DNA of 64,000 nucleotides from a virus, in the IMG/VR virus record IMGVR_UViG_3300024221_000006, positions 1 to 64,000 of that record. The stretch is one strand, 5' to 3'. The notes beneath the pieces were generated by a model. That model ran no database searches. It was not told the DNA's origin and worked only from the letters and a program-made list of their open reading frames with translations. Both the position numbers and the translations under genes were made by a program. Every line of letters begins with the position of its first letter. The first letter of the stretch is position 1. Of the stretch, positions 1 to 56,600 are shown piece after piece.

Positions 1-1488
1 TTCAGTTTCTTCTACTGCTTCAGTTTCTTCTTCTTCAGTTTCTTCTACTGCTTCAGTTTCTTCTACGAATTCTTCTGCATTTTCTTTATCTTCAGCATCA
101 ACGTCTTCAACTTTATAAGTTTCTCCGTCTACTGTAAATTCTTTTTCTCCGTCTGCGATTGCTTTTGCTCTTGCAGCACCAAATGCATTTCCTTCTTCAA
201 CGTCTTCTTCTTCAGTTTCTTCAACTGCTTCAACGTCTTCTTCTTCAGAAATTTCTTCGTCACCTGCATCGTCAACTGTGTCTTCTAATTCGTCTTCTAA
301 CTCGTCAGATTTGTCTTCAACTTCTGCACCGTGATCTAATTCATTATCTTCAGCATCAACTGTAGGTTCAGTAACATCTGTAGAATCGTCTTCATCTTCA
401 ATTTCTTCAACTTCTTTACCAGCTTCATCTTCTAGTAATAAGTTAGAATTAACTGTTTCTGCAACGTATTCTGCGTATTCAGTAACTTTTTCTAAATTTT
501 CTTTTAAGTATTCAATATACTTTAATAAGCCTTCATGAGTTGTTGCACCTTCATTATAAGATTCTGCTAAATAATTAGTATAGTCTTTAATTGATTCAAC
601 ACCTTCAGCAACATGCTCAGTATATGCAACGCTATTATCTAATTTCTCAGATATTTCGTTATTTGTAGTTATTGTATTATCTAAGTTTTCAGCAAGGTAT
701 GCAGAATACTCGATAGTCTTTTCTAATTTCTCAGCAAGATAGTTTGAATATTCTTTAACGCTTTCAACTTCAGACTTTACAGATTCATCACTATTTAAAG
801 ATTCCATTCCCTCTTTAATAGTTTTTATTTCGCTTGATAAATACTGTGAATATTTATTAAAATCATCAGTACTTACGAATTTTGATTCAGCCATTTTGTT
901 TTCAGTTTTATTTTCGGTTGTTAAAAGTTCTTTTGTATTTCCAATTTCATAAATTTGAATGCTAGAATCGTTATCAAATCCGAAAGATTCGTTAACTCTT
1001 TTTAATTCAGCATTTTCAAAGCCAGGATCTGCAACTAAATCATAAGTGAATAATTGCTTAATTTTAACAGTCCCGTTAGATTCAACTGTACCAGCTGCTC
1101 TAGATGAAATTTGTAAAGGAACACCAGCATCAACCAAAGCTTTAGCCTGACGACCAGCTTCAGTATCAAGTAATCTGATTTTACCTTTTACTTGTTTTGT
1201 TTCGCTATCATAGGATAATTCTTCAATAACGTGAGATACGTTTTTTAAAGATACATCAAATGTTTGTGGGTGATCTAATTCTCCTAAAAGTTTAGAAGAA
1301 CCTATTTTAGATTGAAGAGCTTCAATTTGTGGAACATATTCTGACTCAGTATAGATTCTATTATTTCTATTCTTTTTGTCAATTTCTCCAAATATACCTT
1401 CAAGGACATAAGCCCCATCACCATCTTGTTTGAATTCTAATTCACTAGAAGATCTTTCTAGGATTAATAGATTGTTTTTTGTATTCAT
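1..1488 (-). CDS. 21: Prohead protease-scaffold fusion (T4 gp21 + gp22-like), partial at left edge
   Basis: At least 496 residues; the 3' end lies outside the window. Residues 1-165 look like the T4 gp21 prohead core protease (peptidase S80-like): the GELDHP block puts the candidate catalytic His at 73, and the GVPLQISSRA block puts the candidate Ser at 128 or 129. From Met199 onward the protein is highly charged and helical, with repeated Y-x-x-Y-L-A-E-x-L-x segments, followed by a long Glu/Asp/Thr/Val tail that contains tandem repeats. That is the composition of a prohead core scaffold such as gp22. RVNE-S at 164-168 lies at the junction and fits a self-cleavage site. The ATG at 1488 follows the AGATATATA element by 25 bases. 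Protease assignment is firm; the fused scaffold role is inferred from composition and gene order (20, core protein, 21, 22). Confidence 0.82.
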   Translation of the reverse strand, partial: MNTKNNLLILERSSSELEFKQDGDGAYVLEGIFGEIDKKNRNNRIYTESEYVPQIEALQSKIGSSKLLGELDHPQTFDVSLKNVSHVIEELSYDSETKQVKGKIRLLDTEAGRQAKALVDAGVPLQISSRAAGTVESNGTVKIKQLFTYDLVADPGFENAELKRVNESFGFDNDSSIQIYEIGNTKELLTTENKTENKMAESKFVSTDDFNKYSQYLSSEIKTIKEGMESLNSDESVKSEVESVKEYSNYLAEKLEKTIEYSAYLAENLDNTITTNNEISEKLDNSVAYTEHVAEGVESIKDYTNYLAESYNEGATTHEGLLKYIEYLKENLEKVTEYAEYVAETVNSNLLLEDEAGKEVEEIEDEDDSTDVTEPTVDAEDNELDHGAEVEDKSDELEDELEDTVDDAGDEEISEEEDVEAVEETEEEDVEEGNAFGAARAKAIADGEKEFTVDGETYKVEDVDAEDKENAEEFVEETEAVEETEEEETEAVEETE

Positions 1489-27569: not shown

Positions 27570-29441
27570 TTACCAGCTAGCAGCCCATACAAATTCAAAG
27601 TTATGTTTCTTACAAAACTTTTCAATCATATCTGAAACCTTAGCTTGAGCAGCTTCGTACTTAGCGTAATCTCTTCCATCTATAATATTATAAGCGCTTT
27701 CTCCATATTCATCAGGATGTCTTAATTCTCTTGGCTCGTCAGTCTTATAATAAACTTTCTTTTCAGCCGTTCTAATATAAGGCATTCTTAATTCTATTCT
27801 TCTATGTGCTTTTCTTCCGCTTGCCTTTGCGATGTCATATTGCTTTTCGATTCTTGGCTTTAATCTAGTCCATTCGGCTAATATTTTATCATTAGCTTTA
27901 AAACCTGCTAGGATAGTTTTCATGTCAAATTCTACTCCGTTTACTCTTTTGTAATCTTTGAAAACTCCAACTACATCATCCATAAATTTATCAAAGCTAG
28001 AAATAGATTGATAAGAACCATGTACAGTTCCCATACCCCAATCATCTTCTACCTTTCCAGTTGATACTTTTTTGGTTCCATTGAATAATTTTGCAAATGA
28101 ATAATTAGGTTTACGCGTTGAGTTGTTAGACTGAAACTTAAATACTTCATGTTTCCATGATTTTCCTCGAAGCTCAATGCTCAAACATAAGTTACCTCCA
28201 TAATTCCATTCTGATCTATAAACTCTACATTTGAATTGAATTTTTGGAAATTCCTTTTTTAAACGTTCAGCCATTTGTAAACCATTACCGAAGTTAGATT
28301 CTCTTTTGTATGCTTCTTTACATTCTTTAGATTTTCTAGCAATAGCTAAAACCTTACTTATTGTATAGTATGTTTCTGAATCGAATATTTCATCATCTGT
28401 TTCTTTATCTAAAATAACATCTTCATTAATAGATTTTAAATGAGTCAGTTTAGTGGATGTTGATTCTGCAAATGCTTCAATATCCCATTGGATTCTTTGC
28501 ATTGGATCATCACCTCTAAAGTTTTTCTCAACCCAATCAATAAGACCTGGTTCGAATTGGGCGTTTTGTGCCATATCATAGGCATTCTTCCAACCGTCGT
28601 TTGATGCAACGTCTTCTAACCATTGGTCATATTTCCTTTGAGTCCATCTTACTTTCTTAACAGCTTTCTTATGAGGACCAGCTCCTAATGTTGACTTTAC
28701 AGTATTATAATGGTCTGGACCAGCAAATACGCCTTCTGCCCATTCTTGATCTCTTTTATTACCGTCCCAATATTTAATTTCTTTTCTGAATCTTCTTAGT
28801 GAATAATTACCACCTTCAATTTGTTTACGCTTTGTTACTTCTCCTTGTCTGTAACCTATTTCAATCTTCTTTTCTTCGGCAGTTTTAGGATCCATTTCAA
28901 AATGTAAAGATTTTACTAAATCTGCAATACCGTCAAACTTACCTTCATTAACCGATTCTAAAATAATAGAATTTAGCTTTACTTCTTTATTAAATCTAGC
29001 GCTGCGTACATCGTCAGTTACTTCTAACTTAACACCATACATTGCAGTTAATTTTACCTTTACTTTTTTACCATTATGTTCTGCTTCAAATTCTTTAAAT
29101 GCATTTGCCTGTCGGCCATAATCCGTAATTTCATAGTTTCCATCTTCTGTATCAAATATAGTACCGATGCTAATTTTATTAAGAACTCTTGCACCCATCA
29201 TAGATATTTTAGAAGAAGATATTGTTTTACCTTCATCAAGTGATCCGAAAGATTCAAATGATATAATGTTTTTCATTTCGCGTTGTTTCTTTTTATTTCT
29301 CTTCTTCTTATACTCTTCTTCGGCATCTCCTTTTCCGGCTGGAATATCCCCTGATCCAACTGATGTTTCAGATGGTAAAGAGACTTCTCCCATTCCGGCC
29401 ATATCGCCAAGTGATAAGTTTTCGTTTTCGTTTAATTCCAT
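27570..29441 (-). CDS. Putative internal head polyprotein, 623 residues
   Basis: Not recognised as a family. Residues 1-55 are an acidic then basic leader; Met56 starts MKNIISFESFGSLDEG, which resembles the capsid-targeting peptides of neighbouring genes, so translation may begin at 29276. SLDE-G (67-71), ESVNE-G (162-167) and SINE-D (337-341) look like prohead protease sites. They would release a small beta-rich domain (about 71-166), a basic domain rich in Trp/Arg/Lys (about 167-340) and a C-terminal domain (341-623) that is also basic. It is the last gene of the late unit started at 31131. Role as injected protein is inferred. Confidence 0.55.
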   Translation of the reverse strand: MELNENENLSLGDMAGMGEVSLPSETSVGSGDIPAGKGDAEEEYKKKRNKKKQREMKNIISFESFGSLDEGKTISSSKISMMGARVLNKISIGTIFDTEDGNYEITDYGRQANAFKEFEAEHNGKKVKVKLTAMYGVKLEVTDDVRSARFNKEVKLNSIILESVNEGKFDGIADLVKSLHFEMDPKTAEEKKIEIGYRQGEVTKRKQIEGGNYSLRRFRKEIKYWDGNKRDQEWAEGVFAGPDHYNTVKSTLGAGPHKKAVKKVRWTQRKYDQWLEDVASNDGWKNAYDMAQNAQFEPGLIDWVEKNFRGDDPMQRIQWDIEAFAESTSTKLTHLKSINEDVILDKETDDEIFDSETYYTISKVLAIARKSKECKEAYKRESNFGNGLQMAERLKKEFPKIQFKCRVYRSEWNYGGNLCLSIELRGKSWKHEVFKFQSNNSTRKPNYSFAKLFNGTKKVSTGKVEDDWGMGTVHGSYQSISSFDKFMDDVVGVFKDYKRVNGVEFDMKTILAGFKANDKILAEWTRLKPRIEKQYDIAKASGRKAHRRIELRMPYIRTAEKKVYYKTDEPRELRHPDEYGESAYNIIDGRDYAKYEAAQAKVSDMIEKFCKKHNFEFVWAASW

Positions 29442-29444
29442 ATC

Positions 29445-29762
29445 TTAATATTCAAATGGTGGAGTTCCATAATCATCTTGTTCGATGCCATACCATACTC
29501 CTGATACTTGTAAATACCACCATCCATATTTAGTGTCGTCTACTACTTTAAATTTCTTAGGTAATTTAACAGATTTTTTTGGAGCTCTAGCAATATACTT
29601 TAAAACTGGAACACCATCGTCCCATGTTTTTTTAGTAGATCTTGCTTGAACTGATTGTCCATCTGAAAACGCATCAAATGCTTTTGCATCTTCTATTTCA
29701 TCTGCTAATAAATCGATAGCTGATTCATTAATGTATTGTTCAAATAATTTTACTTTTTTCAT
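29445..29762 (-). CDS. Small putative internal head protein
   Basis: 105 residues. The N-terminus MKKVKLFEQYINES is a close match to the capsid-targeting peptide of T4 internal proteins (FIAE-A type), with a predicted cut after Glu13. The rest is a compact domain with a Trp/Tyr-rich end (KYGWWYLQVSGVWYGIEQDD). Spaced by 1-3 bases from both neighbours in the same late operon. Confidence 0.55.
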   Translation of the reverse strand: MKKVKLFEQYINESAIDLLADEIEDAKAFDAFSDGQSVQARSTKKTWDDGVPVLKYIARAPKKSVKLPKKFKVVDDTKYGWWYLQVSGVWYGIEQDDYGTPPFEY

Positions 29763-29763
29763 T

Positions 29764-31098
29764 TTACCAAACTATGTTTTTATTATCCCATTTAGCCATT
29801 CTTTGCTTAAGCTCTAGTGCTTTACGCTTAGCATCTCTCATATACCAAGAACTTGATGAACCGAATTTTTCTTCTTCAGTTTTCATATTAACGTATGCTG
29901 AAACATATCCTTGATAATCTGACAATATATTTGCAATATAATTGGTTAAATCTCTAGGTCTAATTTCTCTTCCTTTAGGGTCTTTTCCTATTGTTAATTC
30001 GTTATAGTTTCCTAATTCTTTTTTAGCTAAACCAGCCATTAAGAATTGGTGTGCATCTTCGATAATTTCTTTAACTTTCTTGTCTATTTTATCTGGGTTA
30101 TCAGCTTTCTTCGCAAGAATATCGTTATACCTTGTTAAGTTATCCTCTTTGATTTTCTTAGGGTTTGTAAGTGCAGTAGCTCCAGATTTTGCCTCTGCTC
30201 TTGCAGATGTCTTATCATCGGTAGATAAAGAAGCTCTTAATGTGTCTAAATTAATAATGTAACATTCGTCAGACATTTCCGCAATTCTTTTAATGTTACC
30301 TAATCCCGTTCCACTATATTGGTTGTGTGATTTGTTAACACCGACAGTATCTTTAGATCCAGGGTATTTACCCATGTTCTTAAGTCTTCTTGTGTTTTTC
30401 TTACCACCTATTGTGTCGCTGTTTCTATTCCATATTGAATCGTTCTGAAACATTTCATTTTTTCCATTAGAAACAGCTAATAAACAATTTCCAGGAATCA
30501 TTTCAACATATCTTCCGGAAGAAGGAGCATATTCATTTTCTTTTTCATTTCTAGAAATCCAAAATACAATTACGTTTCCGAATGTTTTTGCTTTCTTATA
30601 AACTTCAACTGGGTTGCTATTAGAAATTATCATATCATCGGTAACTTTATCTAGTGCTACTTTAGCAAGACCGTATATACCTTTAATTAATTCCTTACCA
30701 CCTTTTTTGATGTCTATTAATCCTCTTAACTTGGAAGAAGCTAGAGCTTCATTAAGTTCTAAAGATTCAGTTGCTCTGTATTTTGCAAATTTACCCTTTT
30801 TAATTGTTTTAACTAATTCAGCTTCGCTATCGTCCATGTGACCATATACATCATTATGTGTTGCTGCGTTTACTATTTCACCAGCATCACCAATAAAATA
30901 AGTTCCTCCTGCATATTCGTCTCCATCCATATCTAGATCAAAACCACCGGAATCTAATGAATTTTTAGAAATTGTGAATTCTTTTCCGTCTGCTTTTGAA
31001 AGAGCAGCTGCTAATTTTTTTGCTATTTTAGCAGTATCTTTCTGCTTCATAACCTTTGCTTCATTGATAAAATTATCGAAGTTAGTATATAGTTTCAT
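29764..31098 (-). CDS. Putative internal head protein with two processing-like sites
   Basis: 444 residues, basic. It begins MKLYTNFDNFINEA, an almost exact internal-protein targeting pattern with FINE-A at residues 10-14. A second site SLELNE-A lies at 112-118, so processing would give a ~100-residue acidic domain and a ~327-residue basic protein (Lys/Asn-rich, with repeated K-K-I/D-K motifs). I do not recognise either domain. It is the first gene after the AGATATATA element at 31131. DNA binding inside the head is plausible from charge. Confidence 0.55.
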   Translation of the reverse strand: MKLYTNFDNFINEAKVMKQKDTAKIAKKLAAALSKADGKEFTISKNSLDSGGFDLDMDGDEYAGGTYFIGDAGEIVNAATHNDVYGHMDDSEAELVKTIKKGKFAKYRATESLELNEALASSKLRGLIDIKKGGKELIKGIYGLAKVALDKVTDDMIISNSNPVEVYKKAKTFGNVIVFWISRNEKENEYAPSSGRYVEMIPGNCLLAVSNGKNEMFQNDSIWNRNSDTIGGKKNTRRLKNMGKYPGSKDTVGVNKSHNQYSGTGLGNIKRIAEMSDECYIINLDTLRASLSTDDKTSARAEAKSGATALTNPKKIKEDNLTRYNDILAKKADNPDKIDKKVKEIIEDAHQFLMAGLAKKELGNYNELTIGKDPKGREIRPRDLTNYIANILSDYQGYVSAYVNMKTEEEKFGSSSSWYMRDAKRKALELKQRMAKWDNKNIVW

Positions 31099-31132: not shown

Positions 31133-34100
31133 TTAATGTAAGGAATCATGTGCTAATTCATTAGCTAAGTCTGGATTATCATCTGTGAAATCTGATAATT
31201 CTTCGTCAGTCATTTCTTTTCCATTAGAATATTCACCATAACTAAAGAATGCATCTGTGAAATCTGGATAATCTTTCATATCAACATCTTCCATTTCTAA
31301 TGAACTAATATCTACTTTCTTTCCTTTAAATTTAATATAATTAGCTTCGTTAATAAAAGATTCTAATGTTAAACTAACAACTGGTTTAATTCCAGTTAAT
31401 ATTCTTTTTCCAAATTTAGAAAGACCAATTCCATTTTCACTTACTGTAAAGTATTTAGAATTTCTTCTCATCCATCTTTTATTATCGATTGATTTTTCTT
31501 TTAGAATATTATTGAATTCTTCTTCTGTTAATACACCATCCGCTAATGCCTCGATCATTGCGTTTCTGACTTTAGCAGTTCTACCTGAAGTTTGTGCAGG
31601 ATGATTATCGGTATATCTTCTTTTTATTTGAATTTTAGATTCTCTAAGACCCGGTTTCATTACGTTTAATTCCCACCACTGTTCTAATTGGTGATAAATA
31701 TTTGCACCCATGTTTGAAATCATGAAGTCAATTACATCATCATAATTGTCTTTTTCATCTTGATAAAAACCAGGAGTATCGATATATTCTTTACCCATTA
31801 TCTTTCTAACTGCTCTTTCTGGCATAGCATCGATTTCTTTTAAAAATTCTTCGAAATCTTCATCGTTTTTAAAACCCTTAGCTTCAATAACCATTGATTC
31901 CATTAGGCCAATAGCAATCTCTCCAACTTCTCTATCGCCGCCGTCAACATATCTTTTGTTAAGTATTGCAAATTTAAAACCATCTGCTTTTATCGTATAC
32001 ATTGGCATCATACTATCACTATAGTCGTATTTGTATTTACCTGCTTTTAATTCTTTACCGATTGCAAAGAAATCTTTAGCTTTACCTACTAAATCTGCAA
32101 GATTATCTAAGTGGTCACCGGCGTCGTCCTTTTCATTAACTAATGATTCATAAACTCCTTTTTCAATGTTCTTGATTAAGAGTTTAGCACCCTTCTTGTC
32201 AAGTTCATTTTGAATAAAGTCCATCATTTCGTTGGGATCTTCAGCATCTATACCAAATTCAGATGCTAAGTTTTGATATGCATCAAATTCCATATTAGAA
32301 ATAGTGTCTTCTAAGTCTGCATACACATCTTCATTAACTGCTGATTCTACCATTACTAGCCCTATATCCTTATATGCTATTTCATGCTCTCCACCGTCTT
32401 GATCTAGTGCAAATACTGATTTATCATGCCACATTGCAGCATTGTCATCGTTATTAGAATCAGGATTATAAATGATATATTCTTTTCCGTTTCCGGTTTG
32501 AATCATTGCATCATCTGCATCTCCTAATTTTTTTAATAATGACTTTTTAGTATACCTTTCTTCAACAGCTTCACCTGACGTATATTCAAAATCATTATAT
32601 AGTGCCTTTAACCATTCTAAAAACTCTGGAGTTTTCTTCATTACTTTCTTATGTCCGTATTCTTTAAAGAATTCTTTCTGAAAAGTATCAAATGATTTGT
32701 GATTACCTATCATTTGGTGAATGTCAGACATAACACCCTCACTGATAACTAATTTTACATCTTTGTTTTTACCAGCTACTGCATCATCTAGTTCATTTGT
32801 AAGAGCTTTCTTTTTTGCTGTTAAATCTATTAGCTGCTGTCTAGTTGCTGCTTTCTCATCACTTCCATCTTCCGCAGCGATGTATATCTTTACAATATCT
32901 TTCATCTTATTAACTGTTTCTCCAAATTCCTTTGAAATCTTGTTAATAGATCTAGCTTCTAATATATTAGATTCTTCAATGTATTCTCCTAATTCAGGAT
33001 CGTCCCATCCATTAGGATCGGCTAATACTGATTGTAAATCTTCTCTTGAACCTGTCATTTCAACTTCTGGCCAATTGCCACCAGGGCCGTTCATTGTTAA
33101 AACTTTCATTTTAACATTATATTTCTTTAAAAGCTTTTTGAGTGTTTTTGATTTAGGATCTATTGCATCCATTACTACAGTAGCTTCATTTAAATTTTCG
33201 TCTAGCTTATCAAAGAATCCACCATGTTCACTTTGTAAATCTTCACCATACTTGTCGTCCCATATTTTAGCTAATTCATCTTTAGTAATTTTACCTTTAT
33301 ATTTTCCCATGATTTCAACATAGACACTACCATATTCATATTCAAAATCTTCACCATAAGAAAAATCCCATGCCTTTTCAACATCTTTAATTGTAAGCTT
33401 TTTGGCTTCAGTAACCTTTGATTCATACCATCCGTTTTCGTAATCGTCATCATCTTCATAATCATCATACTCAGGTTCTTGATACCATGATTGATTTGGA
33501 TCAGATTCTGCTTCTTCAGTAAAGTCATGTCTTTTCCAATTAAATCTTGGATCTTCAACTAATGCAGGGAATAATGTCTTTTTCTTTTTATCTTTGGTCT
33601 TTATTTTACCGAATGCTAAATCAATACCAAGTTGTCTTAATTCTTTAAATGAACCTTTCATTGTTTTAACATCTTCTTCAGTATATCCATTCATTGTAGC
33701 AACAAGATCATAATAATCCATTCCACCAAATTCACCATATCCTTCATAATCCTTTTCCGTCCACTTGTTACCCATATTATCATACATAAATACTGTAATC
33801 ATGTTCTGTCTTTCAGAACCTATTTGTGTGTTTGTATCGGATGTAAGCCATGAAAATTGACCTTCAACTATCATCTGTTCATGTAACAATTGAGCACCAG
33901 TCGTTACAATGTTTAAATAGCTTTCAGGAATTCCATTTACAAAGTTATGTAATTCTGGTTCGAAATCTGGCATACCACATGCATATCTTGGATATGTTGC
34001 TCCTTCTGTATTTACAAGAATACTCATTCCATAATACTCTCCAAGCTCACCTGATTCAGTGTTACAATATAATACAAATACCTGTGGCACTTGAACTTTA

Positions 34101-34351
34101 AAGTTAGATTGTAATGGATATTCGTTATGACATCCTAATTCTTTAGTAGTGTATACGTCTAAGGAATGTAATTCTTTATCATATTTAGTTAATTCTCTAT
34201 ATGGAATAGAAGCTCTTTGGTTAAATAGATCTCCCCAATAAGAAGGCTTTCTCAAGGAATATTTCCCAGAAACCTTTTTGTATACTTTATATAAATCAAC
34301 GTTTTCGTTCATTGAATTTACAAAGCTTTCGAATGTTTTTTTAGTGCTCAT
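31133..34351 (-). CDS. Giant putative internal head polyprotein, 1072 residues
   Basis: The N-terminus MSTKKTFESFVNSMNE resembles the capsid-targeting peptides. At least eight sites of type ES-x-[VIL]-x-E-[AGDK] divide the chain: 313-316 (VTE-A), 387-390 (LNE-A), 463-466 (ILE-A), 536-539 (ISE-G), 672-675 (VNE-D), 738-741 (VNE-K), 821-824 (VIE-A) and 1000-1003 (INE-A). Between them lie small acidic or mixed domains of 45-180 residues with no shared family that I can name. This layout fits cleavage by the prohead protease into a set of head-internal peptides. The N-terminal ~300 residues form a larger domain ending in an Asp/Glu/Tyr-rich stretch (about 280-310). Confidence 0.6.
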   Translation of the reverse strand: MSTKKTFESFVNSMNENVDLYKVYKKVSGKYSLRKPSYWGDLFNQRASIPYRELTKYDKELHSLDVYTTKELGCHNEYPLQSNFKVQVPQVFVLYCNTESGELGEYYGMSILVNTEGATYPRYACGMPDFEPELHNFVNGIPESYLNIVTTGAQLLHEQMIVEGQFSWLTSDTNTQIGSERQNMITVFMYDNMGNKWTEKDYEGYGEFGGMDYYDLVATMNGYTEEDVKTMKGSFKELRQLGIDLAFGKIKTKDKKKKTLFPALVEDPRFNWKRHDFTEEAESDPNQSWYQEPEYDDYEDDDDYENGWYESKVTEAKKLTIKDVEKAWDFSYGEDFEYEYGSVYVEIMGKYKGKITKDELAKIWDDKYGEDLQSEHGGFFDKLDENLNEATVVMDAIDPKSKTLKKLLKKYNVKMKVLTMNGPGGNWPEVEMTGSREDLQSVLADPNGWDDPELGEYIEESNILEARSINKISKEFGETVNKMKDIVKIYIAAEDGSDEKAATRQQLIDLTAKKKALTNELDDAVAGKNKDVKLVISEGVMSDIHQMIGNHKSFDTFQKEFFKEYGHKKVMKKTPEFLEWLKALYNDFEYTSGEAVEERYTKKSLLKKLGDADDAMIQTGNGKEYIIYNPDSNNDDNAAMWHDKSVFALDQDGGEHEIAYKDIGLVMVESAVNEDVYADLEDTISNMEFDAYQNLASEFGIDAEDPNEMMDFIQNELDKKGAKLLIKNIEKGVYESLVNEKDDAGDHLDNLADLVGKAKDFFAIGKELKAGKYKYDYSDSMMPMYTIKADGFKFAILNKRYVDGGDREVGEIAIGLMESMVIEAKGFKNDEDFEEFLKEIDAMPERAVRKIMGKEYIDTPGFYQDEKDNYDDVIDFMISNMGANIYHQLEQWWELNVMKPGLRESKIQIKRRYTDNHPAQTSGRTAKVRNAMIEALADGVLTEEEFNNILKEKSIDNKRWMRRNSKYFTVSENGIGLSKFGKRILTGIKPVVSLTLESFINEANYIKFKGKKVDISSLEMEDVDMKDYPDFTDAFFSYGEYSNGKEMTDEELSDFTDDNPDLANELAHDSLH

Positions 34352-34371: not shown

Positions 34372-35451
34372 TTAAACTCGGTTAGGCTTTATTTTATATT
34401 TAAATTTACCTTGTGTAATAGAATATATTTGTAATTCGCTAGTTTTTCCAGGTAATTTCTTGTAATAGTGAAAAGCTACTATTTCATGATCTTTAGACTC
34501 TATAAAAAGGAATGGAGTAGGTATATCTCCTACTGCTGAAATTACATCGTCTTGTATTTCAGTAAATGTTCTAACGGAAGGCTCAGTCTCTATTATACTT
34601 TTAATTTTTTCTGCAGTTTTAGAGTCACTTAGCTTTCCTAATTCTACGTCATTAAATTTAATTACTAATGCGCCGTTATCTTTATCTCCAGGACCTATTT
34701 TAAAATCTCTTTCACTAGAAGAAAGGGCCTGAATATCTGTCTTAGTTAAATTTTGAATATGCTTAAATCTTTTTCCACCTACAGTTCCCCATTCATTTAT
34801 CCAACCTCCACCGGCAGCCATATCTTTACCATCTCCGTCCGGGTTGATTTCTTCAATATTATATTTTACTGCGTCATATAATGCCGTTAACTTCGGTACA
34901 TAAGTACTATTAATTCCCTGGTGTTTTGCACCTGTTCTCCAATTTTGTAACATGCCCTTTGACATTTGAGCTTCTTTTAACTCACATTTACCAAGGGGTG
35001 GTTTAATTGGTGACCACCTTTCATTATATAATTCTAAGTCAGTATCGGCCGCACCTCCACCTATTTTTATATTTTCTACAATATACGCTAGCATTATTTC
35101 TCCAGCACCAATTCCATTATCGTCTCTTCCAATATTAAACAATTCGTTTGCTTCGCTTTTATTTAACATTAAATATTGAAAAACTACTCCGAATGTATCG
35201 TCATCCATTTTAGAAAGCCATAACCTGCCATCAGGTTGTTGTTTAACATCCTGTGTTGAAGTAAACTTAACACCTTGCCATGGACACTTATTCTTTTTAA
35301 ATGTTCTATTAATTGAATTAAATAAATTCTGTTGGGCAGATTTACTTCCGGTCGTTGCAACTCCAATATAGGATTCTATAATTAACGCTTCATTTTCAGC
35401 GTTGGTTTTTGCAGCACTATGTAGTGCTCTTTCAAAATCGTACCTATCCAT
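34372..35451 (-). CDS. Hypothetical protein near internal-protein genes
   Basis: 359 residues, not recognised. It has an alpha-helical N-terminus and a mixed C-terminal domain from about 230 that ends in a basic strand pair (LQIYSITQGKFKYKIKPNRV). Near residues 19-28, ENEALIIESYI resembles the protease-site linkers, but there is no clear targeting peptide at the start. It overlaps the ligase-nucleotidyltransferase gene by 8 bases. A restriction-enzyme-like or packaged DNA-binding role would be guesswork. Confidence 0.45.
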   Translation of the reverse strand: MDRYDFERALHSAAKTNAENEALIIESYIGVATTGSKSAQQNLFNSINRTFKKNKCPWQGVKFTSTQDVKQQPDGRLWLSKMDDDTFGVVFQYLMLNKSEANELFNIGRDDNGIGAGEIMLAYIVENIKIGGGAADTDLELYNERWSPIKPPLGKCELKEAQMSKGMLQNWRTGAKHQGINSTYVPKLTALYDAVKYNIEEINPDGDGKDMAAGGGWINEWGTVGGKRFKHIQNLTKTDIQALSSSERDFKIGPGDKDNGALVIKFNDVELGKLSDSKTAEKIKSIIETEPSVRTFTEIQDDVISAVGDIPTPFLFIESKDHEIVAFHYYKKLPGKTSELQIYSITQGKFKYKIKPNRV

Positions 35452-37315
35452 TGTTTTCTAAAAATTGTTTAAATGTTAATAATGATTCAGCAACTTCATT
35501 TGATTCTGAAGTACCTACTGAATCTTCTAATTTTTTCTTAAGTTCGCCATACATTTTATGTAATGCTTTGGGTGTTGTTGACTTAAATAATCCTTCATCT
35601 CCGTCTAGCATTGCGTTTCTAACCTGAGTCGCTGAAATATTATTGTCTGTTCTTGGAATTTCAAATAATCCAAAATCACTCCTAACTCCAAGATCTTCTC
35701 TATAAGAATCTTTATTTACTTGGAATCCGTAAGTTTTCATTCTATCGCTTCCTGTTCCCCATAATACGGGTTCATAAGTTGGTCTCATTGCATTGAACAT
35801 TGTATCAATACCTCCGGTTGGAATTACAAAGATTTCTTTTAAAAATGGATATTGTTTTTGAACCGCCTTAAACATATCTAATTGTGTCTTCTCATCATAA
35901 GGTCTTTTAAATGCATCTTCCTTTTTCTTATTCTTTGCTTTTACTAATAAAACAACCACAGGATATCCATTTTCTTTGTGTATAGTTTCTAATACTTTAG
36001 CATGTCCAAGTGTAAATGGTTGGAATCTACCAACAAACATATTTACTAATTCTCCTCCTTGTTCAGGATGATCTACTTTAAGTGCTTCATTTAAATTAAC
36101 ACTTGTCTTTACTTTATTATGTAATATGAAATTATTAAAGTCGTATATGGAATTTTCATCGGTATTCTCTACAAATACTTTCTTATCTATAGTTTCTACT
36201 ATTTGATTTAAATGCTCTAACATTTCTGCATTTATGATATCGCTTTCCTTGCTTCTCTTTTTTCTAAAAGAACCTAAAGTTATTTTAAATAATTCTGCAA
36301 GTATTTCGTTTTCAACATAAGAAAGAGTGGTCTCGTTCTTAATGTATTTAGTATTTAGTTTAAAGGAATCTGAATCTGCAAAATCAGCTGATTCAAAGTT
36401 AACACCAATAAACTTAGCAGAGTGTTCTTTAACATACGTATTAAACATCACTGACATTAATTCAATATATCTCCAGTCTGCTGTTTCTTCATTTAGTTGA
36501 ATGTCTTTCATTTCAAATGTAGAAATAAATTCAATAAGACCAGCAATAGTAATTTGATACATGTGGCTTGATCTCTTATTTTCACTAACAGTTCTTGTAA
36601 AATCTTCTAATTTAAAAGATCTAGATTTTTTCTCATCAATAAAAGAAACTATTAATCCGTCAATTTCTACTTCAAAGTCTTCATTTAACGTAGGAGAAAC
36701 TGCATTTGGATTAAATGTCTTAATCATCTTTTGAGTGAAAGGTAATCTTGCATCTGTATTTGGATCATAATCAAATGCTTCAGAAAACTCCTTATCTGAC
36801 ATAGATAAAACACTTATTAATTCTTCTTTTTGCATTTGAGATAGCATACCATCAAACACAATGCTAGGTCCTTGAACCTCTAATATCTTTGCCCATTTAT
36901 TTAATATAATTGGATCGCTAATTGTTTTTCTAATCTTACCTGACTCATTCATAGTTTGAATGTGCGTAAGTATTAAATTGTTTTTAGGTAGTTTAGTATA
37001 TTTATATTCTGACACGTTTAATTCAGGTAAATATTCAAAACCAAATTTCCAATCATGTGGCATTTGTTCCTTTATACTAGGATCTAAACTTTGGATGTGC
37101 TTGACACCTGTTTCATATAAACCTACTATTGTTCTGTCTATCATGTTCATTCTAGAATCTCCAGATTTGTAATATTCAAATTTAGTCTGGTTTCTTCTAA
37201 CGTGAAATGAAGCTCCTTGTATTTTTTCAGTTACTAGAACCCTGCTATTCAACATATCTTGAAATGCATTGATATTAGTTTCCTGAAATACTTGTCTTAG
37301 TTTTTTAAGTGCCAT
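35444..37315 (-). CDS. Nucleic acid ligase-like + NMN adenylyltransferase-like fusion
   Basis: 623 residues. The N-terminal half has an RNA/DNA ligase-type adenylation core: VTEKIQGASFHVRR, candidate nucleophile Lys31, then FGFEYLPELN (about 91-100) and EVEIDGLIVSFIDEKKSRSFKLEDF (motifs IV and V, about 215-238). The C-terminal part is a nucleotidyltransferase with MFVGRFQPFTLGHAKVLE (426-443, HxGH-type T-L-G-H) and ISATQVRNAMLDGD, as in NMN adenylyltransferases. Between them is SVNLNE-A (405-411), a prohead-protease-like site, so the two enzymes may be separated in the head. The last residues TFKQFLENNG echo the targeting peptides. Confidence 0.6.
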   Translation of the reverse strand: MALKKLRQVFQETNINAFQDMLNSRVLVTEKIQGASFHVRRNQTKFEYYKSGDSRMNMIDRTIVGLYETGVKHIQSLDPSIKEQMPHDWKFGFEYLPELNVSEYKYTKLPKNNLILTHIQTMNESGKIRKTISDPIILNKWAKILEVQGPSIVFDGMLSQMQKEELISVLSMSDKEFSEAFDYDPNTDARLPFTQKMIKTFNPNAVSPTLNEDFEVEIDGLIVSFIDEKKSRSFKLEDFTRTVSENKRSSHMYQITIAGLIEFISTFEMKDIQLNEETADWRYIELMSVMFNTYVKEHSAKFIGVNFESADFADSDSFKLNTKYIKNETTLSYVENEILAELFKITLGSFRKKRSKESDIINAEMLEHLNQIVETIDKKVFVENTDENSIYDFNNFILHNKVKTSVNLNEALKVDHPEQGGELVNMFVGRFQPFTLGHAKVLETIHKENGYPVVVLLVKAKNKKKEDAFKRPYDEKTQLDMFKAVQKQYPFLKEIFVIPTGGIDTMFNAMRPTYEPVLWGTGSDRMKTYGFQVNKDSYREDLGVRSDFGLFEIPRTDNNISATQVRNAMLDGDEGLFKSTTPKALHKMYGELKKKLEDSVGTSESNEVAESLLTFKQFLENNG

Positions 37316-37325
37316 ATTATATTAT

Positions 37326-38696
37326 TTATCTTCCGTACTTTATGATTCCCATCAGCTGATTGATAGCAGCAAAAGTACCTGTTAGTTTCATAGTCTTTCC
37401 TTTATATACAAAAACTATTCCTTCAGTTGGTATGATAGATTCTACTCCTCCAATTCTATCTAATCTCTCTAGTTCTTTCATTACCTTTTCGATCTGAGTA
37501 ACGCTTCCATCTTTTTTGATCTTTTCAGATTCTGATCTAATTTGATTATGTAGTCTTTGCATCTCTTTGTCTGGATTTGCAGCTACAAAATTAGAAGCAT
37601 TCATAAGAATTATAGACCCTAGTTCTAAAAATAAATCTTCAAACGGTCTAATGTTTTCTTTATATTTCTTTTTAACATCTTCTTTGTCAAATTTCTTAAC
37701 AGAAGCAGCTTCATCTTTTCCTATCTCCTTTGCAAGTGATCTCATATTTAAAGACTTTTTATCTCCATAAGCCCATCTTAATAATAAACCTTCCTTATAG
37801 TCTTGTTGTAAATCTGGGAAATTTGCATCTATTGTTTCTCTCCACCACATTTCATGATATCTAGAAACTTCGTCACCGTCTGTTAAGTTATAACGATCTC
37901 TTAATTTTTCAATCTGCTTTATAAATTTAGCTTGATTTTTATCAAAATTAATATCTTTACCTAGTTTTAAAATCTGAGGAGGAATTATTGTAAATGTCTT
38001 TTGAACATCGGCATCTACTTCCTTTAAAGCTTTGACTAATTCTCCTGCTATTTTTCTAGATCCTGTAATATTACCATTCCCATCAGTTTCTTGAATATCG
38101 TGAAATTGAAGAACATCTCTTTCGTAATAGATTACATTTGGGTTTTTAGAATAGATTAATTCTATATTTATAAAATCTTTACCGTCATTAAATATGGACT
38201 GATCTTTAATTTTTGGAAGAGCTTCATTTAGATCTTTAGCTGCAAACACGTATGTTTCTCGCACTAAAGGTACCTCATGCTTTTCAAACATTTCTATAAT
38301 ACCGTCTAAATCAACGGGACTAATTAATTGACCTTTATTTCTAGAAAACATCGTAACTCCGTTTTTTACGGTTGCTAATAGATTTTGACCGTCTGTTTTT
38401 TCAGTGGCTACCTCTTCAAAGTTTAATTCTCCTTGAAGACCGGACGTTACGATCTTTTTAAAATCTGCGAATGTTAAATCTTTTTCATCGAAAGGATGAG
38501 ACATGTGACCAGCTGCACCGCCTTCTAAGATTAATTCTTCTTTAAGTGTATTGTATTTTTCAACGATATATTCGTCAAATGATAAAACTTTACTCTTATT
38601 TTCACTCATATAATGTGCAACATATTCCTCTCTGGTCATGCCTTGTGCATCTGCGTGATGTTGAATAAAATCTACAAAGTTGTTATTTAGTTCCAT
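37326..38696 (-). CDS. ATP-dependent nucleic acid ligase-like protein with N-terminal processing-like sites
   Basis: 456 residues. Adenylation motif I is ATEKTDGQNLLATV (Lys100), and near the C-terminus are TEGIVFVYKGKTMKLTGTF (motifs IV/V), so it is a nucleotidyltransferase-fold ligase or tRNA/RNA repair enzyme of an unfamiliar type. Before the catalytic core, residues 36-59 read KVLSFDEYIVE and then EELILE-G, which resemble the targeting peptide and processing site of neighbouring genes. The core after the cut would start GGAAGHMSHPFD. It is adjacent to a second ligase-like gene. Substrate is unknown. Confidence 0.58.
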   Translation of the reverse strand: MELNNNFVDFIQHHADAQGMTREEYVAHYMSENKSKVLSFDEYIVEKYNTLKEELILEGGAAGHMSHPFDEKDLTFADFKKIVTSGLQGELNFEEVATEKTDGQNLLATVKNGVTMFSRNKGQLISPVDLDGIIEMFEKHEVPLVRETYVFAAKDLNEALPKIKDQSIFNDGKDFINIELIYSKNPNVIYYERDVLQFHDIQETDGNGNITGSRKIAGELVKALKEVDADVQKTFTIIPPQILKLGKDINFDKNQAKFIKQIEKLRDRYNLTDGDEVSRYHEMWWRETIDANFPDLQQDYKEGLLLRWAYGDKKSLNMRSLAKEIGKDEAASVKKFDKEDVKKKYKENIRPFEDLFLELGSIILMNASNFVAANPDKEMQRLHNQIRSESEKIKKDGSVTQIEKVMKELERLDRIGGVESIIPTEGIVFVYKGKTMKLTGTFAAINQLMGIIKYGR

Positions 38697-50072: not shown

Positions 50073-53000
50073 TTAATCACATCTCAGCATTCCTCCTAGG
50101 GAAACCGATGCACCGGAACTTGGAGTTGTTATTATTACACTACCGATCGCTGCACAGAATGTTTGTGAAGGTCCATTTACCAGGATCGTATCAAACTGTA
50201 TAACACCGTTACAATCTTCATAAGAGTAAAGTGATGAGGAATTAGTCCCGGCTGTCACCACATGTGACTCACATAGACTAGGGCATGTAGCTGTTGTTAA
50301 AGAACCAGTATACGTAATTTGCGTAGAATTACCCGCTGAATGCTGTATTACAAGATCGTTAGTGGTATATCCCATGCCTAATTGCGAACATGCTGTCACT
50401 GATTGGATATCAATTGTTCCTATTCCAGTATTAATGTTAGGTGGATTTACGGTTGCAGTATACCTAGTTCCATTTCCAGTGTTTTGGGAAGTACCTGAAA
50501 TTACAATAGGAGTTTGAGTAGCATCGTTTGTTATATACTGTACCTGGTCGCTACCGTTTCCCGCTCCAAAGGAATAATCATCCAAATTAAAGGTAGACCC
50601 TCCTTGTATTTGAAGTGCTGAAGTAGGTGGATTATAGTTCTGTACGCACACTGATGGATCGTATCCCATTCCAGCCGGCTGTCTATTCCATGCTGAAGAA
50701 CTGTAATCCGGACTTCCACCGCCATTATATATACCGTTGTCAGTGTCAGGATCTAAATAATCTTCGGTTCCATCTTGTATCTTATCACTCCACCATGCAG
50801 TTCTAAATTTAATAGTAGAACCAGGATTATTATCTAAATAAGAATATATGTCGTTTGAAACTGAAGGTGATACTAGGATTTTAAATTCAACCCTCTGATA
50901 TCTTCTAAATTCAGTATCATTCTGTCCAGTATACCAATAATCCCAATCTTCTCCAGATAATACACCTGTCCCTGGGTTTTCCCATCCTCCGCTATACATC
51001 TTTTCTATGGTACCACCGGGACCGCTTATTGTCGGACCAACTTGTGTACCTATTGTTGCAGCCGTATTCCAGTGATTAGTACCCTCTGTATAGTTATATG
51101 GCATTGAATATTGTGGAAAGTCAGTTGTCGGGTCTATTGTTAAACTATCATAGAGGTCTTCTATTATACCTTTGTTCCATCTTGTAATTATAGGAACTTG
51201 AACCATCGCAACAGTTTGACCTATATCATTATAAATGTCTAAAAAGACCTCTGCTGGCCATGTCCATCTTCCCTGTTGATCATATAATTCTCCGCTTGTT
51301 AATGCGTTTGCTGTGGTAGAATTAGCCTGCTCATAAAGTGAAGGCCATACGGGCTCAAATTGACCAGGGCTTCCCGATATTGGACGTACTATTGCGCCGT
51401 CTGATGTATTAGTAGCCCAATCGCCATATCCTCCTCTACCTCCTGTTAGTGTTAAACTAAATCTGTTGTTCGGCGGAGGAGCAGAATTAGAAGGACTGTT
51501 TGATTGATTCATAGGACTATAGTGCCAACTCTCTTCTTCAGGATCTTCTACTTTAGGCAATCTATAAAAATAACGAGGAGTACCATACCAGCTATTTCCT
51601 CCTTTTTCCCATGAGCTTCCAGTTGCAACTATATGTGCAGATGGATCTGTTATATTTAAAGCCACCGGATCTATTCCCATACTGGACTGTCCGGGAGAAA
51701 CTGTATAAAAGTTGTTTTGATAACTAAAAATCTGACCTTCGTAATATGAACTAGTTGAACTTGGATTAAATTCTCCTACGTAATTCCATGCAGATGTAGT
51801 AGATGTATTTCCATTCCATCTTTCTGACCAGTCAGTAAACCATGAATAAGATTCTGCTTCTCTTTCAGTATTGCAATTAGGTGGTGATTCTGGAGAAGGA
51901 TTTGATGACCATGAGGTATCTTTACCTCTAGCTGTTAATCTTAAGTCAAATATATTAACTTGGCCGTATTCGAGTTGAACATCTGACGTACTTCCTGCTG
52001 ACCATGTTCCTGTTGTAGTATTTTTAATTTCTCTACCTGCTGATTGAAGTGGCTGTCCAACGATAATCGAATTACCTTGATATCCATTAGCATCTACTAA
52101 ATTTATTTCTCTCCATCTATCTGCTCCTGCTTCATCTGGTGAATTAGGAAATACTGCATCGTTATATGTTGTGCTATTGTTATCTAATAATTTAGAATAC
52201 ATGGCAGGGAATGTAAGAGGAGCAGGGCCTGTAACATTATAATATAAATCAGATGCTCCTAAATATATTAATTGAGGAGTTTTAACAACCGCATACTCAG
52301 TTGTTGCATAATTAGAATTAGTTGAAGTCTCACTTACCCATGCCTCTGTAGAATCAACAGTTATATCATATTCAATTGAATTCGCGTCTTGAGAGAAAGT
52401 AAATAGACCTCCTCCTATAAAATTAGGTCTTGATGCACCACTTAGTGATGTTATTTGGCCTACGTTTGTTGTAAAATTAAATGAAAAGGAATTTAAATTA
52501 GGAACAGTGTAGTTTATATTACTATTTTTCCAAGTTTGACCATTACATAAATACCATCCCTCATATTGCGTACCTGCAACTCCTCTTCCAACTACAATAT
52601 CTATCGTACTTGGATCACTATTTAAATTTATTGTTTGATTCTGTGTAAAGTTACTAACATCAATATATGTGTCATAATGAAAAGATATTATTGTTCCTAT
52701 GGGAACACTTGCACCTATTTCAGATGCTTCCTTAAAACCTATCGTTCCAGTATTGTCTAATGCCACCGCAATCTTATCTACATCTGGGTTAGTGTTAGTT
52801 GTTCCACCTACGTAAGAGTTATTAATTTTAAAAATACTACCTGTAAATATTGCATCGTTAGTAGAAAGAAATGATCCTGTAAATTTTACACCGTTAATAG
52901 CGTCCATTGACATCATCTCATTATCATTGACATCGTTGATTATGTACGTATCTGCATTCCATCTATATTCTCCTGCCGCTACACTAGATGCAAATTTAAA

Positions 53001-53555
53001 TTCTAGAACAGACTGTTCGCCAATTGAACTTAAAGCAGGATAATTAGTCAATGCTATGTCTAAATACTTATCTGTTCCTTTTTCAGATATTAATCTAATG
53101 TTAGAATCATGATAATTTGAATTCTTATTAATTAATAAAACGCTATTTAGATACCCCGATATTAAATTTAAATCATTATACTCATCATCATTACTTGCAT
53201 AACCTAATAATACGTTAGTTGGAGGGAAATTCACCTGTGTTGCTGGACCTGCCAGCTCATGTTCAGGTACTATAGTTTTAATATTAAGAGCTCCATTGTA
53301 CCATATTGCTCCGTCTTTCCATTTTGAATTATTAGAAGCGTCAGCAGGTCCTTGAAAACCCTGAGGACCGTCAATACCCTGAGGACCATCGTCACCAGTT
53401 GCACCCTGAAATCCCGTTTCACCAATAGAACCAGTGGCTCCCATTGGTCCACCGCCATTAGCAACTAACTGATCAAAGTTATAATTAACTTTATCCAGTT
53501 TTTCCTGTTGTGTATCAGATTGTAGAATCTGCTTTAAATTAATAGGTATTGGCAT
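50073..53555 (-). CDS. Collagen-like tail fibre with collar domain
   Basis: 1160 residues. The N-terminus (KLDKVNYNFDQLV, about 19-31) is homologous to the next fibre gene and probably binds the tail. Gly-X-Y collagen-like repeats follow (35-70, e.g. GPMGATGSIGETG). Further along is the phage tail-collar-like motif YEGWYLCNGQTWKN (near 335). The C-terminal 600 residues are Asn/Ser/Thr/Gly- and Cys-containing beta-rich sequence, likely the receptor-binding part. It is read from a late element 24 bases upstream. Confidence 0.7.
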   Translation of the reverse strand: MPIPINLKQILQSDTQQEKLDKVNYNFDQLVANGGGPMGATGSIGETGFQGATGDDGPQGIDGPQGFQGPADASNNSKWKDGAIWYNGALNIKTIVPEHELAGPATQVNFPPTNVLLGYASNDDEYNDLNLISGYLNSVLLINKNSNYHDSNIRLISEKGTDKYLDIALTNYPALSSIGEQSVLEFKFASSVAAGEYRWNADTYIINDVNDNEMMSMDAINGVKFTGSFLSTNDAIFTGSIFKINNSYVGGTTNTNPDVDKIAVALDNTGTIGFKEASEIGASVPIGTIISFHYDTYIDVSNFTQNQTINLNSDPSTIDIVVGRGVAGTQYEGWYLCNGQTWKNSNINYTVPNLNSFSFNFTTNVGQITSLSGASRPNFIGGGLFTFSQDANSIEYDITVDSTEAWVSETSTNSNYATTEYAVVKTPQLIYLGASDLYYNVTGPAPLTFPAMYSKLLDNNSTTYNDAVFPNSPDEAGADRWREINLVDANGYQGNSIIVGQPLQSAGREIKNTTTGTWSAGSTSDVQLEYGQVNIFDLRLTARGKDTSWSSNPSPESPPNCNTEREAESYSWFTDWSERWNGNTSTTSAWNYVGEFNPSSTSSYYEGQIFSYQNNFYTVSPGQSSMGIDPVALNITDPSAHIVATGSSWEKGGNSWYGTPRYFYRLPKVEDPEEESWHYSPMNQSNSPSNSAPPPNNRFSLTLTGGRGGYGDWATNTSDGAIVRPISGSPGQFEPVWPSLYEQANSTTANALTSGELYDQQGRWTWPAEVFLDIYNDIGQTVAMVQVPIITRWNKGIIEDLYDSLTIDPTTDFPQYSMPYNYTEGTNHWNTAATIGTQVGPTISGPGGTIEKMYSGGWENPGTGVLSGEDWDYWYTGQNDTEFRRYQRVEFKILVSPSVSNDIYSYLDNNPGSTIKFRTAWWSDKIQDGTEDYLDPDTDNGIYNGGGSPDYSSSAWNRQPAGMGYDPSVCVQNYNPPTSALQIQGGSTFNLDDYSFGAGNGSDQVQYITNDATQTPIVISGTSQNTGNGTRYTATVNPPNINTGIGTIDIQSVTACSQLGMGYTTNDLVIQHSAGNSTQITYTGSLTTATCPSLCESHVVTAGTNSSSLYSYEDCNGVIQFDTILVNGPSQTFCAAIGSVIITTPSSGASVSLGGMLRCD

Positions 53556-53578
53556 TACTTAAATCTTTATTTATTTAG

Positions 53579-53587
53579 TATATATCT
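53579..53587 (-). promoter_or_regulatory. Putative late promoter element AGATATATA
   Basis: AGATATATA (followed by CTAAA), 24 bases before the ATG of the collagen-like fibre gene at 53555, in the gap after the Hint-domain fibre gene. Confidence 0.6.
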
Positions 53588-53607
53588 TTAATTTCTAGAA
53601 CTAATTA

Positions 53608-56600
53608 TTACTGGACCTTTTCCTCTAGCTCTTCAACATTATGGCATAAAATACCGTCTGCAATATAAACATCTTCATTTTCAACATCAATAGAATATGT
53701 GTTAACCGTTTTGTGAATAGTTTCATTAGAGTTAACTCTTGTCCATTTTTCATTAACATATATCATGTCGGTCGTATCAATATAAAGAGCCTGTTTAAAG
53801 AATATTTCTCCATCTGGTCTTTTTATTAATATAGGGTGTTCGTTTGTTATTTTAGTTAATCCGTTATTAATATCTTGATAGTTCTTATAAGTTCCTTTTA
53901 TTATTCTGACTATTTTAGCAGATGACTTAGGAGCCCTGAATTCCATCGCATTAGTTTTAAAATTTCTCCATTCACCACTATCGCTTAATCCTTTTATATC
54001 AAACGAATCTAATACATCTCCTACTTTTAAGTTTTCAACTAATTTAGTAGTTCCATTTGCCATACTAATTACAGTACCTTCAACGTGACATGGATCAATG
54101 GAAATTCCTATAGTAGTATCGCTAGCGAGTTCATTCAATGTACCACTATAATCAAAATCTAAGTCCAATATTTCACTAGGCTCTTCTATTGGCGTCATGA
54201 TACTTAGTGATACATAATTGTCACCTGGGTTGAAACTTACACTAGCCCAATTCATGCTGTTGCTAGGATCCTCTATAGTAAAATTAGAAGAACTAAGCTG
54301 GGATGGAGATATGCCACTAAGCGTAAAATAAACATTTCCATTACCTCCTCCACCGAAATAATTAAGTGTATTATTGGTATTTCCGTCATCCCAGTCAAAT
54401 ATAACACCGGATGGACTTCCTCCCGAGCATTCTGTCGGATTAGTGGCAGTTGCTTGACTATTTGAATCAATAGCTTTATAATGTTCACCTGTATATCCTG
54501 ATGTACCAGAGTCTCCAGTCCAGTCGGCTATTTTTATCGAGATGTTTGTTCCTGGAATAAAGGTATCTGATTTTAATAATGTAAGTGGATATTTTCCAAG
54601 ATTAGCGATTGAACTATAAAGAACTGTGTTAGAACTCTGGTCTTGTCTTACGTATATTTGGTTTGACAACCATGACGAAACTCTACCTTCATTCTCGGCA
54701 TTTGAATTAGATGCACCTAAATTCGTTACGCGCCATGATCCAGGGTTTTCTCCTAATTCAAACATATCAGAAGAATAAAATATATCATTACCTGAAGTTG
54801 CATCACATGCCGTAGTAGCACCTATTCCAAGAGAAAGGTCTCCACTCGACCATTGTACAAATCTAGATTTTATAACATCTCCTTTAAATTCATTATCATT
54901 TGCTGACCAATATTTTCTCCATGCCATATATAATCCAGAATCTATTGTTAACATACCACCGAAGCCAAAATTAACCAGATACGTATCCGTATTTGGTACA
55001 CTCCTATACCAACCATCAGTTAATTGATCTATGGTATTATTTCCATCATTACGTTTCCATATATGTGAAGTATTTTCATAATCTTTAAAATCACTAGAAG
55101 ATCCCACGACATCTGGATGATTGTCTATTTTATTAGAAATAAATACTTTTTCCAAAGAAGTGCCGGCTGGCCATCCAGTAAACCCGGTTACATCTGCCTC
55201 TGTCATTGTTACAGGAGGGAGCAGTCCGTTATTAGAAATACCAATGCTAGAATACGTACCGTCAACTCCATTTACACTTTCAGAATACATCATCCAGCAT
55301 TCTTTAGGCTCTGTTTCTAAAGCGTCATCTGAAGATATCCCAACACCATTAATATATTTTCTTGCATAGCCCCATCCATTCTGTCCACCAGATTCTCTAG
55401 CTAACCATCCGTCTGCTAATTCCTGTCCGTTTGAATAGCATCTTACATTACCATTTGCAAAATTATTATCGTTATTCCAATAAGCATCTAATTGAGCTCC
55501 ATCACTTGGAGCACCGTCTGCCGTCCATTGTATTGTTTCTGGGTTTAATGTAGTTGCATATTGCATTGCAATATCTATGTTAGTGCTGTACGTGCCTGGT
55601 GCGATAGTATTTGAATCCATAGATCCTGTCATCGCGTGATATTGTAATTGTATATTAGAAGAGCTGGTAGAGGCGGCGGCCGTACTCCACTTATAATCAT
55701 ATTCTTTCAAATAAATTATACTAATTTGTTCTCCCATTATGATATGCTCAGAAGGCGCAAACTGTATATTTTCATTGTCATATATTCTTACATCTTCTGT
55801 ACTATTATCAAAAGAATGTGATATGACATTAGGGTTTAATCCAGAACCATCGAGACCCAATGCACTAACTCCTCCTGAAAAAAGTATATTACCATTATAT
55901 GTGGCTAAGCTACCTCCACTTGTACTGCCTGATAAATCTCCCGTTAAACCTGCTATATTAGTAATAGCCCAGTCAAACCCGTTTAAGTTAGGTGTATCGT
56001 ATGCTACGATTCCTCCATCACCCCATGTTTCTCCATTACATAAGTACCATCCTGCATAAAGCCCGGTTGGTTTACCTGATCCGAAGTTTGTTTTAATTAC
56101 TTCATCTCCGTCTACAATTAACATAGGCCCTGTCTCGGCATCCGATAGATTAAAGTTCTCTTCACTAAAGAAGGTATCACTGGGTATTCTTATTATAGAT
56201 CCCACGGGGAATACTTGAAACATGTTAAAAACATCTTCCCATTCAACTCTTCCCTGTGTGTCGTGTGATTTTAGTAATTTATTTAAACTTGGAGAGTGAT
56301 TAGAATACTTTATCTCCCCTACTTTAAATTCTATTACACTACCCGGCGAGGTTGCATCTACATTAAGTTCATACGGAATTACGGATTCGGCACCTAATAC
56401 GTTTTGAATGGTTCCATTAAAATAAAACCTATTGTCTCTATCAAATTTTATAGCAAATTTATTATTTACGTGATCAGCATTGATATCCGGAGTAAATGTT
56501 AAAACAGGAAATTCAATATTATTACTATCTTCTTCTATTTTTAATCCAATATTATATGACTTATCGAGATGTTTATCTTCTGCAAATATGATAGAATTCT

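Follow-up and report, generated by a model that had tools for sequence, protein, structure and literature searches.

The internal proteins of bacteriophage T4 remain with the DNA and pass into the host on ejection. They carry a 10-residue capsid-targeting sequence (CTS) with a cut at its end; in the case of IPIII the first ten residues target the core and are cut off, residues 4 and 7 mattering most for targeting and residues 8 and 10 for cutting, and an Asp at position 10 prevents its processing (PMC9026906). T4 gp21 cleaves after L/I-x-E (PMC9026906), in line with a preliminary description of the locus studied here, which had gp21 cutting after hydrophobic-x-Glu. For phiKZ and SPN3US, the reported sites lie within propeptides, leave one mature protein and have the specificity S/A/G-x-E or A-x-E (PMC5694885, PMC10052503), and polyvalent proteins often have their own peptidase domain together with other domain families (PMC5512222). 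As the preliminary description had remarked for T4-like phages, we found no description, in the literature searched, of a phage polyprotein of head cargo that is cut by a maturation protease. Here we analyse a stretch of 64,000 nucleotides (the window) from a marine T4-like bacterial virus which, judged by its genes, appears to make one chain of about twelve small proteins with head-protease cut sites.

Modules, linkers and junctions of P0001

The preliminary description proposed a 1072-residue protein with eight linkers of the form ES-x-[VIL]-x-E. The open reading frame, here called P0001, is genuine and was confirmed at 31133-34351 on the minus strand (Table 1); six of the linkers match the proposed form (residues 310, 460, 669, 735, 818 and 997), whereas LDENLNE/A and VKLVISE/G lack ES but are nevertheless junctions, with hydrophobic-x-Glu and with module boundaries defined by homology (a slash marks the putative cut). 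The P1 glutamates of the eight sites are E315, E389, E465, E538, E674, E740, E823 and E1002, each residue number given earlier being one too high. Homology and the N-terminus add four further sites, i.e. E16 (SMNE/N), E163 (MIVE/G), E598 (AVEE/R) and E904 (GLRE/S), which brings the putative cut sites along the chain to about 12 and the products nearer to 12 than to the about nine first claimed.

The signal in P0001 is the extended motif and its placement at homology breakpoints. The strict motif, present six times, averaged 0.095 occurrences over 2000 shuffles of the protein and never exceeded 2 in any of them; bare [VILMF]-x-E, at 35 versus 28 in shuffles, is not enriched, and its count was rejected as evidence. 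Since plain hydrophobic-x-Glu is too common by count, the case is built on position and comparison. In the aligned linkers, the E and S of ES are conserved at 80% and 73% and the Glu at 82%, and P3 is mostly Val (83%).

When BLAST segments at 70% identity or above were considered, 59% of their internal breakpoints lay within 8 residues of a linker, compared with 12% of random positions. We also used a junction test that is free of the regular expression, in which homologues of each P0001 module were found and the preceding sequence was read in each distinct non-self context. Hydrophobic-x-Glu ends at the junction in 79 of 89 such contexts, versus about 10% at random positions; these contexts partly share ancestry and are not independent, although what precedes the junction is in most of them an unrelated module or the start of a gene. 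E163, E598 and E904 came out of this test, and junctions without ES still keep hydrophobic-x-E. Homologues of module N7 often have ESVVTE directly before them, with hydrophobic-x-E in all 12 of 12 contexts. The placement of breakpoints on linkers, the junction contexts and the presence of an S77 protease in the genome support the claim of a polyprotein with cut-type linkers at its module borders.

A single IMG/VR scan yielded 27 loci related to P0001, mostly near-identical, with whole-module differences in L011, L018, L020-L025, L026, L027 and L028. The alignment of homologues, put forward earlier as a check, reveals that the linkers are kept while modules are gained, lost and swapped between them: inter-linker blocks are present, absent or replaced, and the flanking blocks remain similar. 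Across IMG/VR, the ES-V-V-T-E-A DNA pattern occurs in at least 120 stretches, with up to four matches per stretch, whereas a codon-order-scrambled control of equal degeneracy occurs in 53 stretches of the entire collection and never two together. In at least 78 ORFs of the fetched loci, of which 64 are non-redundant, strict linkers number 2-14 (the most being 14 in L169 and 13 in L173), at a median spacing of 82 residues. No multi-linker ORF outside the scaffold was found in the complete Tenacibaculum phage PTm1 or in the parts of LR756500 and Lak-A2 searched, and tblastn of P0001 against annotated phages gave no match. A second lineage (L115, L129, L168 and L231; contigs of 270-284 kb and others) has a short, unfused gp21 of about 200 residues and proteins beginning MKEQLRKIVRETMKESVLSEIESVNE that bear the same linkers.

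Table 1. Features of the window, in window coordinates; those of the scaffold-embedded module were computed from ORF coordinates.
Feature	Position	Strand	Remarks
P0001 polyprotein	31133..34351	-	1072 aa: 16-aa N-terminal propeptide and about 12 modules
N-terminal propeptide, capsid-targeting-like, MSTKKTFESFVNSMNE/N	34304..34351	-	residues 1-16
Module N1	33863..34303	-	residues 17-163; end MIVE/G; E163 junction via L163 and L178 homologues
Module N2	33407..33862	-	residues 164-315; end ESKVTE/A
Module N3	33185..33406	-	residues 316-389; end DENLNE/A
Module N4	32957..33184	-	residues 390-465; end ESNILE/A; found in about 20 contexts
Module N5	32738..32956	-	residues 466-538; end KLVISE/G
Module N6	32558..32737	-	residues 539-598; end AVEE/R
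Module N7	32330..32557	-	residues 599-674; end ESAVNE/D
Module N8	32132..32329	-	residues 675-740; end ESLVNE/K; relatives without it or with a replacement
Module N9	31883..32131	-	residues 741-823; end ESMVIE/A
Module N10	31640..31882	-	residues 824-904; end GLRE/S
Module N11	31346..31639	-	residues 905-1002; winged-helix-like (predicted); end ESFINE/A
Module N12	31136..31345	-	residues 1003-1072
Second polyprotein, 708 aa	38764..40890	-	4 strict linkers; modules in common with P0001 relatives
444-aa protein	29764..31098	-	CTS-like N-terminus MKLYTNFDNFINE/A
105-aa protein	29445..29762	-	CTS-like N-terminus MKKVKLFEQYINE/S
623-aa protein	27570..29441	-	linker-like sites
gp21-type prohead protease and acidic scaffold fusion	1..1488	-	Peptidase_S77 at 1075-1416; ORF continues beyond the window
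Scaffold-embedded module GNAFGAARAKAIADG..EFTVDGETYKV	67..192	-	VEE/G directly before; also in many polyproteins

Capsid-targeting sequences, head protease and scaffold

Module N11 is internal in P0001 (GLRE/SKIQIKRR), yet it is the first module of other genes, where it stands directly after a T4-type CTS. The sequences found there (MNKFEDFLKE/GKKIQIKRK, MATFEEFLNE/RNITLKRR, MKKFEEFIGE/GKITLKRK and MATFEDFLSE/) have aromatic residues at 4 and 7, a hydrophobic residue at 8 and Glu at 10, i.e. the same spacing as in the N-terminus of T4 IPII and IPIII (MKTYQEFIAE/A). Internal linkers and N-terminal targeting sequences are shown here, by sequence comparison, to be equivalent. Sister genes, such as those at 29764 and 29445, have similar N-termini in a 13-residue form, and at least eight genes of this phage have CTS-like N-termini, versus 1.2 in shuffled N-termini. 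The N-terminus of P0001 itself, MSTKKTFESFVNSMNE, resembles those of other genes in the same genome and the CTS of T4 internal proteins, but is longer than a T4-type CTS and only similar to it. The T4 late promoter TATAAATA was considered as a marker of CTS and linker genes and rejected, as it does not mark them.

Neighbouring genes have modular homologues. That of the 444-residue protein in L025 is 609 residues long, with additional linker-bounded modules, and in L028 and L082 the protein is joined to module N11; the homologue of the 623-residue protein at L025:11548-13554 has four strict linkers.

A gp21-type protease, as found with T4-type internal head proteins, is encoded in the same genome as P0001 (Peptidase_S77, E=6e-12), in one ORF with an acidic scaffold, as in PTm1; the fusion is 686 residues long in relative G001 and is also present at L037:2109-4169. 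An S77 protease is present in every one of the eight linker contigs longer than 100 kb; above 70 kb, it is present in 12 of 14 linker contigs and in 2 of 7 controls. The scaffold has four matches of [FYW][VIL]AE (YLAE and YVAE sites), against 0.1 expected. YLAE/YVAE-like sites are spaced 14, 28, 14 and 35 residues apart, the intervals to be expected if a heptad coiled coil were cleaved at regular distances. The same ORF contains a polyprotein module (GNAFGAARAKAI..EFTVDGETYKV) behind VEE/G, which in many polyproteins is usually again behind hydrophobic-x-Glu; the module pool is thereby linked to a genuine protein of the prohead core. The major capsid proteins of linker phages have an invariant KLYE/DA in their N-termini, probably near the position where T4 gp23 is cut. 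The N-terminus of the 623-residue protein, LGDMAGMGEVSLPSETSVGSGD, is similar to the N-arm of the same phage's major capsid protein, AGNIYGMGNVSLPSATADGSGD (P0002).

Linker DNA and the cargo modules

The codons of 122 ESVV[TN]E linkers hardly vary when compared with those elsewhere in the same ORFs (TCA 82% versus 36%, GTA 89% versus 39%, GTT 94% versus 55%, and ACT, as a share of Thr, 95% versus 52%). The linker 18-mer GAATCAGTAGTTACTGAA, with one mismatch allowed, has 127 copies, 122 of them in frame; the remaining five lie outside ORFs of at least 100 residues and none is in another frame of such an ORF, and only one of the scrambled 18-mers tried occurs at all, twice. The near-fixed codons and in-frame copies imply that the linker is kept as protein and that its DNA is shared besides, a pattern most simply read as having spread through duplication and through recombination at the linker. 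Linkers conserved as DNA beyond codon usage may thus also be recombination seams. More tentatively, and with considerable doubt, we suggest that the linker could be capsid-targeting signal, protease site and recombination seam at once, its almost fixed in-frame 18-mer letting T4-like phages trade cargo modules combinatorially, such that the gene would be an updatable cassette array of injected effectors. The exact linker 20-mer is absent from 85k prokaryote genomes, so no host can be inferred by that route.

Module N11 is predicted to adopt a winged-helix fold (pLDDT 75, with a core near 90), though the winged-helix matches of its model in Foldseek are weak (E≥0.04). An AlphaFold2 model of the whole of P0001, made from 6 sequences, has a pLDDT of 40.7, too low for the linkers to be placed with respect to folds; its dips near residues 388-391, 450-467 and 668-689 are at most suggestive. 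A Pfam scan of P0001 returned no family above cut-off, and the sole PHROGs match is short and of unknown function (residues 408-448, E=4e-5).

One module of L133 is DUF5824, which occurs in a NadM-type protein of Melnitz after QLDE/K, at the C-terminus of a NadM-type protein in HTVC008M after EIDE/T, and as a solo gene in phage C48C1 behind MITFKKYLEE/K; cultured phages may therefore have two- or three-domain versions of such an arrangement. A module of L133:536-4546 (residues 594-699) is 55-62% identical to part of a halovirus HGTV-1 ORF annotated as prohead protease, and also to gp459 of Salicola phage SCTP-2. Inside the polyprotein cluster, window 35444-37315 and 37326-38696 encode ligase-like proteins (KxDG-type motif, by eye), the former with its ligase-like part joined to an NMN adenylyltransferase (NadM) domain. 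Both have linker- or CTS-like ends, and Kyanoviridae isolates have counterparts with CTS-like N-termini; they are possible injected NAD or nucleic-acid repair enzymes. Collagen-like G-x-x repeat proteins of up to 1852 residues are encoded at window 50073-57102 and at G000 104986-110544.

Interpretation and comparison with known systems

Most probably, P0001 is a gp21-processed modular polyprotein of internal head proteins, which would give a propeptide plus some 12 products, each 60-152 residues long. Its N-terminus and the repeated internal capsid-targeting cores (ES-V-V-T/N-E) would bring the chain into the prohead core, where the phage's gp21-type protease would cleave after every hydrophobic-x-Glu and so free, besides the short propeptide, about a dozen small folded proteins, which would remain with the DNA and then be ejected into the host; related phages would alter their cargo through module swaps at the linkers. 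We infer packaging, cleavage, survival of the products and ejection, together with a function in takeover or counter-defence.

Two features sit less easily with gp21: the linker P3 is mostly Val, whereas T4 gp21 prefers Leu/Ile, and the known specificity does not require the conserved ES. Conservation of ES nearly to the level of the Glu, beyond the needs of gp21, is what an uncut multivalent head protein might have, in which the linkers are repeated scaffold docking sites (avidity) and which, like a polyvalent protein, would be packaged and then ejected in one piece, the N4 virion RNA polymerase being a precedent that is packaged unprocessed (PMC5512222). We consider this unlikely, given that the ES-less junctions retain hydrophobic-x-E and that modules also occur directly behind an N-terminal CTS of the type removed by T4 gp21.

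Cutting by gp21 is retained if P0001 is a sacrificial core protein that helps to build the scaffold like T4 gp22, gp67 and gp68 and whose fragments exit the head. Although cutting of T4 core proteins yields multiple fragments (PMC9026906) and one shared module lies inside the scaffold ORF, the pieces, at least one of them predicted to be folded, are far larger than peptides, their strong modular turnover suits cargo better than scaffold, and some 30 kb separate the gene from the gp20-gp21 cluster; such a role is decidedly improbable. P0001 sits among replication genes, not head genes, which would accord with a modular protein of the cytoplasm or the tail that has linker repeats and is either cut by a different enzyme or left uncut. 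The identity of the linkers with CTS-type N-termini, the module common to the scaffold and the co-occurrence with gp21 all argue against it and leave it a very small probability.

If P0001 is indeed a processed polyprotein of head proteins, it would represent a new means by which a single gene supplies a virus head with many proteins, and would account for the dozens of internal proteins that phages load. The repeated CTS cores would provide a sequence signature for finding ejected proteins in uncultured phages, and the module pool a set of candidates for proteins of takeover or counter-defence. One targeting chain delivering several cargoes has potential as a tool, and with the linker DNA held in common, sequence data can be used to test for module swapping.

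Polyvalent proteins (P1 DarA/DdrB, N4 vRNAP) similarly join many domains in a single polypeptide that is ejected or packaged, with proteolytic release in some cases; in contrast, the Pfam scan of P0001 shows neither a peptidase nor a known polyvalent domain, and the protease proposed here is that of head maturation. The long propeptides of phiKZ and SPN3US resemble P0001 in having several maturation-protease sites per head protein. In the NadM-DUF5824 proteins of cultured Kyanoviridae (HTVC008M and Melnitz), hydrophobic-x-Glu precedes DUF5824 in both, and that of Melnitz has a CTS-like N-terminus, but they have just two or three domains and no ES-V-V-T-E linkers. T4 gp22, gp67 and gp68 likewise combine several hydrophobic-x-Glu gp21 sites (putative in P0001) in one protein; theirs is a scaffold whose fragments are mostly discarded, whereas the pieces of P0001 are domain-sized and exchangeable, and P0001 matches none of these families in Pfam or PHROGs and lies outside the gp20-gp21-gp23 cluster. 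With T4 IPI, IPII and IPIII the locus has in common a CTS of about 10 residues (aromatic 4 and 7; hydrophobic 8; Glu 10), cutting by gp21, presumed here, and small diverse mature proteins. In T4, however, each gene yields a single protein carrying a single N-terminal propeptide, whereas here there are up to 14 sites per chain, with P3 mostly Val. Having about 12 sites along its chain rather than a single N-terminal one, P0001 would work like a precursor of internal proteins, not like an ordinary internal protein.
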